Assembly: GCA_002686955.1 (NCBI GenBank)
Contig: NYZA01000138.1
Location: forward strand, 1 to 6,891
Direction of reading: 5' to 3'
Origin: Gemmatimonadota bacterium
Lineage (GTDB): Bacteria; GCA-2686955
Length of the DNA stretch: 6,891 bases
Shown here: piece after piece, positions 2,385 to 6,769 of the stretch
Layout: each line of letters begins with the position of its first letter
How positions within the stretch are numbered: position 1 is the first letter of the stretch
Notes under the pieces: model-generated
Databases searched by the model: none
Told to the model about the DNA's origin: nothing
Seen by the model: only the letters and a program-made list of their open reading frames with translations
Position numbers and translations under genes: made by a program

Positions 2385-3245
2385 TCAAACCCGATCCCGC
2401 GCCTTCGAGGTGCGATCCGAGCCGTAGATGTGGTCCCCAACTCGGCGCATCCAGGCGAGTTCCTCGTCGTTCATCGGGCCGAGTGTGAGCGCGTCGAGGG
2501 CCTGGCGCATTTGGGCGCGACTGTTCGGGCCGGCCATCACCGTATCGACGTGGGGGTTCGATAACGCGAAGCGGTAGCAGTCGGTTCCGGTGGGGGGCCT
2601 TTCGTCGGGCGGGGTGCGGCGTGGGTCGCAGAGATGGCCCCAGCGGGTGGTAGTGTAGGTGACGATCCCTGGACGTCCGGCAGCTTCGAGCTGCGTCAAA
2701 GCGGGGAAGACATCGCGTTCGGCGCCGCGGTGGACTGCGTTGTAACGCAGGTGCCAGATCGAGTAGCGTTGCTCGTCGAGAAGGGCGGGGAACATAGTTC
2801 GGCGGTGTCCCGAGATGGCGAGATGACGCACGTGGCCTGCGTCAATCAAACCGATGGCTGCGTCAATGACGCGGGGAGTCGGGGGAGAGTTGTGCCAACC
2901 GAGGAGCAGAACGTCGGCCTGATCGATCCGAAGCGACCGTAGCGCCTTCAGGGTCGAGGCGCGAACGAGTGCGCCGAAACGGGCGTAGCTCTGGACGACG
3001 ATGAGCATGGAGTCTCGGTGGCGGGGGGCGATCTCTCGGATGGCGCGAGCCATTTCGCCGCGGCGTCGGCTGCCCCAATAGAAGTAATTGACGCCGCGCT
3101 CGAACGCCTCTTCGTAGGCGGAGGTGGGGGCGGCGTAGGAGGATCCCAGCCCGAGGCGGGAGGCGAGGAGGCCCGAGCGACCCAGGGATCGAGGGGCGAG
3201 AGAAGGCGACTGGACCGTCGAGTCGGCGGGAGGTGTCGAGGACAT
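2385..3245 (-). CDS. Divergent aldo/keto-reductase-fold protein, catalytic residues replaced
   Basis: A 286-aa protein starting at ATG 3245, preceded by GGAG two bases upstream. The frame stays open back to GTG 3311, but that extension looks non-coding. The aldo/keto reductase barrel is recognisable: LGRSGLLASRLGLGSSY near the N-terminus, a GVNYFYWGS segment at 51-59 where the family has the G-hydrophobic-N-x-x-D-T strand, RSLRIDQADVLLLGWHN at about 103-119, an SxNP..D.V.AG.NS cofactor-end motif near 228-242, and the terminal MNDEELAWMRRVGDHIYG. By my alignment the Asp/Tyr/Lys/His tetrad reads Tyr56, Arg61, Gln85 and Gly116, with His118 displaced by two positions. Normal NAD(P)H-dependent carbonyl reduction is therefore doubtful; a different chemistry or a binding role is possible. 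The similar residues elsewhere and an undamaged frame suggest a real protein rather than a pseudogene. I see no signal peptide. It is convergent with recQ and divergent from the molybdoenzyme remnant. Substrate unknown. Confidence 0.85.
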   Translation of the reverse strand: MSSTPPADSTVQSPSLAPRSLGRSGLLASRLGLGSSYAAPTSAYEEAFERGVNYFYWGSRRRGEMARAIREIAPRHRDSMLIVVQSYARFGALVRASTLKALRSLRIDQADVLLLGWHNSPPTPRVIDAAIGLIDAGHVRHLAISGHRRTMFPALLDEQRYSIWHLRYNAVHRGAERDVFPALTQLEAAGRPGIVTYTTTRWGHLCDPRRTPPDERPPTGTDCYRFALSNPHVDTVMAGPNSRAQMRQALDALTLGPMNDEELAWMRRVGDHIYGSDRTSKARDRV

Positions 3246-3339
3246 CGCTCCAGGATAGGCCGAGTCGAGCTTGCGGTGGACCCGGATCGTTCTAGCGTGA
3301 AGCCAGACCACCCAAGGTCCGCGGAAACCGACGGAAGCG
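3246..3339. promoter_or_regulatory. Divergent intergenic region, presumed promoters
   Basis: These 94 bases separate the start of the minus-strand AKR-like gene from the start of the plus-strand molybdoenzyme remnant, so promoters for both would be expected here. I could not identify a -35/-10 pair with good spacing on either strand. Both genes have a purine motif very close to the ATG (GGAGCGATG on the minus strand, GGAAGCGATG on the plus strand), a shorter spacing than usual. The regulatory call rests on position only. Confidence 0.3.
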
Positions 3340-3695
3340 ATGCGGCAACTACAACTTCAGATCAACGGCGACTCATCGATTCGCGCGGCTCCGGACCATT
3401 GGACTTTGCTAGAGGTCCTGCGCTACGAGCTGCACCAGGGCCCATCGCTTCTCGACTACGCGATTCCGAGCTCGGTCGACATACTGGAGCTGCGTGCGCT
3501 GATCGTCGAGAGCATCGATCCGGAAGGCCCCTACGGTGCGAAGGAGGCTGGTGAAGGACCCCTGCACCCCGCGATTCCGGCGCTATCGAAGGCGGTCCGC
3601 GATGCGATCGGGGTTCGATTGACGCGTCTGCCCTTTTTACGCCGGCCCGCGTGCTGCGAGCGTTGCAGGAGCAGGGAGAGGAGGCTCGAATCTGA
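3340..3695 (+). pseudogene. Fused remnant of molybdenum hydroxylase small and large subunits
   Basis: The first ~32 residues (MRQLQLQINGDSS... then HWTLLEVLRYEL) match the N-terminal beta strands of the [2Fe-2S] small subunit of the xanthine dehydrogenase / 4-hydroxybenzoyl-CoA reductase superfamily. From about residue 34 the protein switches, in frame, to the C-terminal end of the molybdopterin large subunit: LLDYAIPSSVDI, VESIDPEGPYGAKEAGEGPLHP, then AVRDAIGVRLTRLPF. Glu72, in AGEGPL, aligns with the catalytic Glu of the family. Both small-subunit iron-sulfur clusters and nearly all of the large subunit are absent. From usual subunit lengths I estimate about 2.4 kb is missing, with the junction near 3433-3444. 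A second lesion lies at the five-T run 3634-3638: the expected tail TPARVLRALQEQGEEARI continues in another frame from 3639 and stops at TGA 3693-3695. Read without correction, the frame runs on as nonsense to TGA 3760-3762. The product cannot be a working oxidoreductase. An assembly error is the main alternative. Confidence 0.8.
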
Positions 3696-4692
3696 TGCTG
3701 CGCTTGCCGGCCTTCGAGCTGATCGCGTCTTCGTCGATTGTCCAGGCGCTGGGAGTGCTTGAACTGCGGGGCGACGCTACGTGGCCTTGGCCGGCGGAAC
3801 CGATCTGATTCCGAATATGAAGCAAGGGCTTCTCGAACCGAGTGTCGTTGTTTCGCTTGGCGCCATCGATGCGTTGTGCGGCATCGTCGATGGGGTCGGG
3901 GGAAGCCTCGAAATCGGAGCGATGGCTTCTCTCGATGAGTTCGCCGACGACGAAAGGGTGCGCAAACAGGCATCGGCTTTGGCGCAGGCCGCCGGGTTGG
4001 TCGCGAGCCCGCATCACCGCCGAATGGGCACCATCGGGGGAAACATCATGCTCGACACACGGTGCCGTCTCTACAACCAGAGCTGTTTCTGGCGCTCGGC
4101 TCTCTGGTTCTGCTTGAAGAGGGACGGCACGATTTGTCATGTCGTGGCGGGAGGCAAAAAATGTGTGGCCGCCGCGAGCAATGACACGGTTCCTCCACTC
4201 ATGACCCTGGGAGCTTCGCTCGGATTCGATGGGACGCTGGGAAAGCACGAGCTGCCGATTGATGAGTTCTGGACGGCCGACGGCACTTGGAACAAGAGGG
4301 TGTTGAAGCGCGATCTCCCGGTGTCGATGACGATTCCGCCGACCCGTGCGGGGCACCGCAGCGCCTACGAGAAGCTGCGGATTAGGGGATCGATCGACTT
4401 CCCCCTGCTGGGGGTTGCCGCTCGGGTCGATCTGGGAGATCGAGGTGAGATCGTCGGCGCCGATCTCGTGCTCGGCGCACTTCAGGCGAAGCCGATTCGG
4501 ATGGACGCAGCAGCGGACAATTCGCGGGGCGAGCGTCTCACGGCAGGGATCGAGCTCGAAAGGGCGGTCGAAAAGGTGGCCGCGAGCGCGATGCGACGTT
4601 GCAAACCTCTCGCCGACATCCCCGGGGATGCCGACTATCGACGGGCGATGGTGCCTGTCTACGTGCGGAGGGCCCTCATGGCACCAAGATGA
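3695..4692 (+). pseudogene. Frameshifted FAD/[4Fe-4S] subunit, 4-hydroxybenzoyl-CoA reductase beta-like
   Basis: The natural start is ATG 3695, overlapping the large-subunit stop as TGATG, which implies translational coupling in the original operon. The N-terminus MLRLPAFELIASSSIVQALGV is typical of CO dehydrogenase-type FAD subunits. This frame hits TGA at 3806. The rest of the subunit continues one frame over, and a GTG at 3781 opens a 303-aa reading frame. The shift must lie between 3763 and 3805; one missing base near 3770-3783 would repair it. In the 303-aa frame the FAD motifs are AGGTDL (4-9) and TIGGN (84-88). Between them and the C-terminal domain sits the extra loop with C95, C111, C119 and C128. 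As I recall, the spacings of 16, 8 and 9 equal those of the [4Fe-4S] ligands of Thauera HcrB, and DTRC.LYNQS and CLK flank them. This marks the 4-hydroxybenzoyl-CoA reductase branch rather than plain xanthine dehydrogenase; the true substrate is unknown. C102 is an additional cysteine. If GTG 3781 were used, a protein lacking its first FAD-binding strands would result. No second break is seen downstream. Confidence 0.75.
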
Positions 4693-4834: not shown

Positions 4835-6769
4835 GTGTCCCAATCCCACGCGGCCCAGACGAGCGAGGAGAAATCGCGGCAAGTAGCCGAGGATTCTCGC
4901 CAGAGAGAGTGGAAGCAGCCCAGCTTCCTGAAAGAGCTCTTTCTCGGAAGATTCCGCCTCGATCTGATCCACCCATACCCCGTCGACGAGAAGAGCGACC
5001 GCCCGGAATTCGCGGACTTCTACGACGAGCTCGAGCGCTTCATGAGGGACGAGGTCGACTCGGTCAAGATAGACGCCACCGGCGAGTATCCGCCTGAATT
5101 GATGGAGGGCCTGCGCAAGCTCGGCGCTTTCGGCATGAAGATCCCCGTGGAATACGGCGGGCTGGGTTTCACGCAACTCGAGTACAGCCGCGTCATGGAG
5201 CTCTTGGGGAGCGCCGATGGCAGCGTGAGCGCTTTGCTCTCGGCCCATCAATCGATCGGTGTACCGCAGCCGATCAAGCTCTTCGGAAGCGAAGAACAGA
5301 AAAAGCGCTTCTTGCCTCGATGCGCGGCCGGTGCCGTTTCAGCATTTGCTCTTACCGAAAACAATGTTGGTTCCGACCCCGCGAGCCTGGGAACCACCGC
5401 GGAGTTGACCGAAGAGGGAGATGCATACATCGTTTCCGGGGAGAAGCTGTGGTGCACGAACGGCACCATCGCTGACCTCCTCGTAGTAATGGCTCGCCAC
5501 CCGTCCGACAACAAGATCAGCGCTTTCGTCATCGAGGGCGGCGCGCCGGGAGTGAAGGTCGAGCATCGGTGCTATTTCATGGGACTAAAGGCGTTGGCCA
5601 ATGCCGTGATTTCCTTCGACAAGGTGCGCGTTCCGATCGAGAACCGGATCGGGAGAGAGGGCCAAGGCCTGCGAATCGCGCTCACGACGTTGAACACCGG
5701 ACGGCTGTCGTTGCCGGCTGGTTGTGTCGGCGCCGCGAAACGTGCGATTCAGGGGTGCCGTCAATGGGCGAGCACGCGAATGCAGTGGGGGCGTCCCGTC
5801 GGCGAGCACGAAGCGATCGGCATTCGTCTCGGCGAGATGGCCGCGACGACATTCGCTATGGAAGCGGTTTCAGATCTGGCGGCCGAGATGAGCGATCGGG
5901 GCAACTACGATATTCGTCTCGAAGCCGCCGGTGCGAAGGAGTGGAACTCGGTGCGAGGATGGGAGATCGCCGACGACGCCATGCAGATCCGAGGTGGACG
6001 CGGATACGAAACAGAGAAGTCGCTGGCCGCTCGCGGTGAAGCTCCCGCTCCTTGCGAGCGCGGAATGCGCGACGGGAGAATCAACCGTATCTTCGAAGGT
6101 TCCAGTGAAGTGATGCACCTCTTCATGGCCCGCGAAGCAGTCGACACGCATCTTCAGGTGGCGGGTGACCTGATCGACGCACGCAAGGCGAACAACGAGA
6201 AACTGAAGGCCCTGCCCGATGTGATCAGATTCTACGCTCGCTGGTACCCCGAGCTGTGGCTGAGAGGGATCAGGAATCTACGCTCCGACGGTTTTCGCGA
6301 ATTCGGCTCGATGGCCAAGCACCTGCGTTTCGTGGAGCGCACTTCACGACGCCTGGCGCGCCAGACTTTCTACGGAATGCTCGTTCATCAGGGAAAACTG
6401 CAGTATCGCCAGGGTTTTCTGTTCCGAGCGGTCGATGTCGGCATGGAGCTCTTGGCGCTCGGGGCGGCGGTGGCGAGAGCGCAACGCATGATGGTTACTG
6501 GGCACCCGAGCGCGCAAGATGCGGTCGAGCTCGTACACGTATTCTTCGGATCATCAAAAGGTCGTGTCGGAGCCGCGTTCCGGGGAATGTGGATGAGCAA
6601 CGATCGACGCGCCTATGACGCGGGCCAGCGTGTTTTGAGGGGCGAAATGCGATGGATGGAGGATGAGATCGTGGACTACTCGAATCTGAGCGATGAGGCC
6701 GTCGCGGATCCCGCGCGAGCCGTGACATCCGAAGAGTCGGATCGGGCGAACGTCGCGGCGGGGGCATAG
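4835..6769 (+). CDS. Acyl-CoA dehydrogenase, long VLCAD/ACAD9-like form
   Basis: A 644-aa FAD enzyme expected to introduce the alpha,beta double bond into an acyl-CoA in the cytoplasm, passing electrons to electron-transfer flavoprotein. Domains in order: helical N-domain (about 55-165, including the GMKIPVEYGGLGF segment), beta domain with FALTENNVGSD at 171-181 and WCTNG at 206-210, helical C-domain with STRMQWGRPVGEHEAI at 313-328 and RGGRGYE at 386-392. Glu421 in RIFEGSSEV is the likely catalytic base, at the position used by MCAD and VLCAD. The protein continues about 200 residues beyond the usual ~380-aa dehydrogenase. This helical extension resembles that of VLCAD and ACAD9, which in those enzymes is linked to dimerisation and membrane association. 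I see no transmembrane segment or signal peptide. The start is GTG 4835 with a good AGGAG. It follows the decayed molybdoenzyme operon by 142 bases on the same strand, so it may once have shared its pathway. It looks intact and functional. Chain length or branched/aromatic substrate cannot be told from sequence. Confidence 0.93.
   Translation: MSQSHAAQTSEEKSRQVAEDSRQREWKQPSFLKELFLGRFRLDLIHPYPVDEKSDRPEFADFYDELERFMRDEVDSVKIDATGEYPPELMEGLRKLGAFGMKIPVEYGGLGFTQLEYSRVMELLGSADGSVSALLSAHQSIGVPQPIKLFGSEEQKKRFLPRCAAGAVSAFALTENNVGSDPASLGTTAELTEEGDAYIVSGEKLWCTNGTIADLLVVMARHPSDNKISAFVIEGGAPGVKVEHRCYFMGLKALANAVISFDKVRVPIENRIGREGQGLRIALTTLNTGRLSLPAGCVGAAKRAIQGCRQWASTRMQWGRPVGEHEAIGIRLGEMAATTFAMEAVSDLAAEMSDRGNYDIRLEAAGAKEWNSVRGWEIADDAMQIRGGRGYETEKSLAARGEAPAPCERGMRDGRINRIFEGSSEVMHLFMAREAVDTHLQVAGDLIDARKANNEKLKALPDVIRFYARWYPELWLRGIRNLRSDGFREFGSMAKHLRFVERTSRRLARQTFYGMLVHQGKLQYRQGFLFRAVDVGMELLALGAAVARAQRMMVTGHPSAQDAVELVHVFFGSSKGRVGAAFRGMWMSNDRRAYDAGQRVLRGEMRWMEDEIVDYSNLSDEAVADPARAVTSEESDRANVAAGA

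Follow-up and report, generated by a model that had tools for sequence, protein, structure and literature searches.

4-Hydroxybenzoyl-CoA reductase (HBCR; HcrABC/HbaBCD, structure 1rm6), of the xanthine oxidase family, is built from three subunits, and its FAD subunit carries an extra [4Fe-4S] loop with four cysteines. This cluster is described as a special feature of HBCR by Unciuleac et al. (2004), as cited in PMC10420851. HBCR-like operons with the gene order small-large-FAD are found intact in metagenome genomes of Planctomycetota and Myxococcota (L015–L060). The window analysed here, which is the entire contig C138 (6891 bases) of a 4.28-Mb source genome assembled into 270 contigs and 84.5% complete, follows the same three-subunit plan in the same gene order and has the same loop and cysteines, and its FAD subunit is 50–58% identical to those of the closest of these operons. 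It differs from them in that 2.4–3.1 kb lie between two points that are joined in the window, and from 4-hydroxybenzoyl-CoA reductase in scoring below the equivalog cut-offs and in being broken. The locus is very probably the remnant of an HBCR-like molybdenum hydroxylase operon altered by one deletion of ∼2.5 kb, a chance in-frame join and further indels.

A profile-guided search, for which the FAD subunit was aligned with 1rm6_B in two rows, recovered 80 relatives, mainly from Planctomycetota, Myxococcota and Gemmatimonadota. A single-protein scan of genome and viral contigs returned no relatives, and a genus-to-phylum search for a closer copy, which covered one other genome, found no close FAD-subunit relative there. 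In the NCBIfam ranking, HBCR alpha was the top family for the large part and HBCR beta for the FAD part, while XdhC ranked narrowly above HBCR gamma for the small part. The remnants, both partial, missed the equivalog cut-offs (216.3 versus 404.55 for TIGR03195 and 65.8 versus 994.55 for TIGR03194). Given that the relative L017 also fell below the cut-offs although it is intact (879 versus 994.55, 276 versus 404.55 and 162.7 versus 257.8), we place the operon in an HBCR-like subfamily without an assigned substrate and do not assign it to true 4-hydroxybenzoyl-CoA reductase.

Several features of the relatives were recorded alongside. Downstream of the intact HBCR-like operon in L016, positions 8984–12 822 encode a sigma-54 activator and a pair of ABC transporter components, an inner-membrane permease and a binding protein of the SBP_bac_11 type. 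Several Gemmatimonadota relatives (L045, L046, L048, L053 and L055) have about 1 kb extra between the large and FAD genes. The metagenome-derived entries L075 and L076 are titled Klebsiella pneumoniae, but the HBCR-like operons in them are similar to operons from Myxococcota and from other environmental genomes, and the titles may be wrong.

The fused reading frame and its junction

The open reading frame at 3340–3762 on the forward strand (140 aa) consists of 31 small-subunit residues followed by the last ∼68 residues of the large subunit. A sequence-only reading had seen here a single frame that starts as the [2Fe-2S] subunit and ends as the molybdopterin subunit, and we matched the two parts to separate, adjacent genes. 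The head (3340–3432, +) covers the first 31 codons of the gene for the small, gamma-type [2Fe-2S] subunit; its residues 1–31 match the N-terminus of small subunits in HBCR-like operons with 52–75% identity in the closest relatives (65–75% over 31 aa in most of them) and E-values down to 1e-11. The tail (3433–3636, +) comprises ∼68 C-terminal codons of the gene for the large, alpha-type Mo-cofactor subunit, and residues 32–99 align with the C-terminal end of HBCR subunit alpha at positions 670–737 of 746 in TIGR03194 (E 2.6e-18). The tail also matched positions 690–752 of structure 1rm6_A (E 5.8e-14) and the large-subunit ends of intact relatives (E about 1e-35, down to 2e-38), with 62–77% identity to the closest ones. 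At these E-values, neither head nor tail is a chance match. The same reading frame gave no match in Pfam, because both pieces are short.

A codon-level comparison with 54 intact loci placed the deletion junction at a Leu codon common to both parental frames (3430–3433, +). Small subunits of the relatives read ...TLLEVLRYxL|GLTGSKQGCDKG... and large subunits ...NRFGL|HxGPSLLDY..., whereas the window reads ...TLLEVLRYEL|HQGPSLLDY...; the parental readings at the junction are RYE-L|GLTGSKQGC for the small and FG-L|H.GPSLLDY for the large subunit. Head-type sequence runs through Leu31 (3430–3432) and tail-type sequence starts with His32 (3433), which locates the break to about one codon; the junction proposed earlier near 3433–3444 was off by no more than a few bases. 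At both break points, the window has the same residues as its HBCR-like relatives. The break points share at least 3 bases in 16 of the 54 relatives versus 7% of random pairs, an excess due mostly to the leucine codon that both genes have in common; the parent sequence of the window itself is lost. A Leu codon in both parental genes fits a deletion between 3–4 matching bases; no larger repeats or IS scar were found around the locus.

The missing segment and further frame breaks

The joined points are 2423–3138 bp apart in the 54 relatives (median 2519.5) and 2486–2621 bp apart in the 20 closest (median 2528), and the small gene precedes the large gene in all 54. The earlier estimate of a ∼2.4-kb deletion was thus close but somewhat low, given a median of 2.53 kb for these 20 relatives. 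The small-subunit match ends at residue 31 and the large-subunit match starts at TIGR03194 position 670; every [2Fe-2S] cysteine, encoded past the break, is lost along with some nine tenths of the large gene, which leaves 3340–3762 with neither the [2Fe-2S] cysteine motifs nor the Mo-cofactor domain. The missing segment is present in the intact homologues and was not found on any other contig of the assembly, which lacks about 15% of the genome. The source genome encodes five further complete large subunits of Mo enzymes; compared over full length with a close relative of the lost subunit, none of them exceeds 39% identity.

Further disabling lesions follow the junction. A tblastn search with a relative's large subunit split at 3636 into two frames, the original frame being left near 3634 at a short T run (about 3633–3638). 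The end of the large-subunit remnant continues in the shifted frame (3631–3695, +), where relatives read ...LPFTPxxVL, and the original stop TGA (3693–3695) overlaps with the FAD start codon, an ATG at 3695. The stretch from this ATG to the GGTDL motif measures 98 nt in the window; it is 99 nt long in four relatives and 96 nt long in L016, and therefore the first ∼28 codons of the FAD gene (3695–3780, +) are out of frame with the remainder.

The body of the FAD/[4Fe-4S] (beta-type) subunit gene (3781–4692, +) matched TIGR03195 (E 5.4e-64) and 1rm6_B (E 3.9e-50) and aligned unbroken past the GGTDL region. It keeps Cys95, Cys111, Cys119 and Cys128, equivalent to Cys122, Cys138, Cys146 and Cys155 of 1rm6_B, which we take to be the ligands of the [4Fe-4S] cluster. 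This reading frame appears intact and would be annotated as a normal gene, yet it lacks the first ∼29 codons in frame.

Only 1 of 57 near-invariant sites was changed in the FAD body, and 3 of 32 were violated in the large-subunit tail, the highest rate among 46 sequences; these counts are small and carry modest weight as evidence of decay. Taken together, a well-preserved FAD body and slight tail decay suggest a recent loss. Within its 25-member clade, the FAD subunit of the window sits on the longest end branch (0.87 versus 0.014–0.63), which also speaks for inactivation but may simply mark an isolated lineage.

The later breaks also bear on why the junction is in frame. The sequence-only reading had allowed either luck or mild selection against nonsense. 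Since the large-subunit remnant breaks its frame ∼200 bp past the junction and the frame of the FAD gene is broken too, the second option is not supported, and we rejected selection for an in-frame fusion in view of the breaks at ∼3634 and 3695–3781. The in-frame join is a one-in-three accident.

History of the locus and alternative readings

We propose that the locus began as a three-gene HBCR-like molybdenum hydroxylase operon in the order small-large-FAD, which the remnant has preserved, as had been noticed from the sequence. One deletion event of ∼2.5 kb would have removed about nine tenths of the large gene together with most of the small one; its end points probably lay in a few matching bases at the leucine codon found in both genes, and the remaining head and tail would have ended up in the same frame by chance. 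The large remnant and the FAD gene also carry small indels, which are additional damage to the same operon. With the cofactor-binding parts of two subunits gone and two extra frame breaks, the operon would have been inactivated; the comparison with intact operons supports both a true deletion and the earlier view that it killed the enzyme. The fused 140-aa product, stripped of every cofactor-binding part, most likely does nothing.

An assembly artefact, in which a mis-join or collapsed strain variation cut the middle out of an intact operon and sequencing errors broke the frames, is unlikely. The window is a short contig of a fragmented and incomplete assembly, which would make such a fault conceivable, but no repeat that could mislead an assembler was seen near the join and the missing segment has not been left on another contig. 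Moreover, the recQ (207–2252, +), aldo/keto reductase (2385–3311, −) and long acyl-CoA dehydrogenase (about 4835–6769, +) genes beside the remnant are all open reading frames, and no internal stops were found in the other matched genes of the source genome, and hence no general sequencing fault accounts for the breaks. With its long neighbours clean, an operon carrying three independent lesions is therefore better explained by true inactivation than by error. The acyl-CoA dehydrogenase itself is 644 aa long with a C-terminal extension of ∼200 residues, and its best relatives within the genome are ∼31% identical. In the relative G001, the aldo/keto reductase (38% identical to that of the window) and the acyl-CoA dehydrogenases (about 32%) are on separate contigs.

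That the fused frame or the FAD subunit is still used, for example the latter with another molybdenum enzyme of the cell, is very improbable: the conserved FAD body, its four cluster cysteines and the five other large subunits speak for it, but the FAD gene's own start is out of frame, with ∼29 residues lost before the first in-frame start (GTG, 3781), and the fused frame is broken and has no cofactor site. We give equally little credence to the FAD/[4Fe-4S] subunit having become a separate, re-used electron-transfer protein with an internal start after its partners were lost.

True inactivation by deletion and indels makes the locus a clear snapshot of an operon shortly after its loss, and a warning, as automated annotation would list a 'hypothetical protein' of 140 aa here beside an FAD subunit that looks intact. 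It is an ordinary kind of gene decay with no new mechanism, documented by the intact copies in other bacteria. Comparative work in Helicobacter pylori counts homopolymer and short-repeat indels among the causes of frameshift pseudogenes (PMC3046158). With bacterial pseudogenes formed by short-repeat deletion and homopolymer indels, the window shares the fusion of two genes and a T-run frameshift, and it differs from them in nothing of substance.
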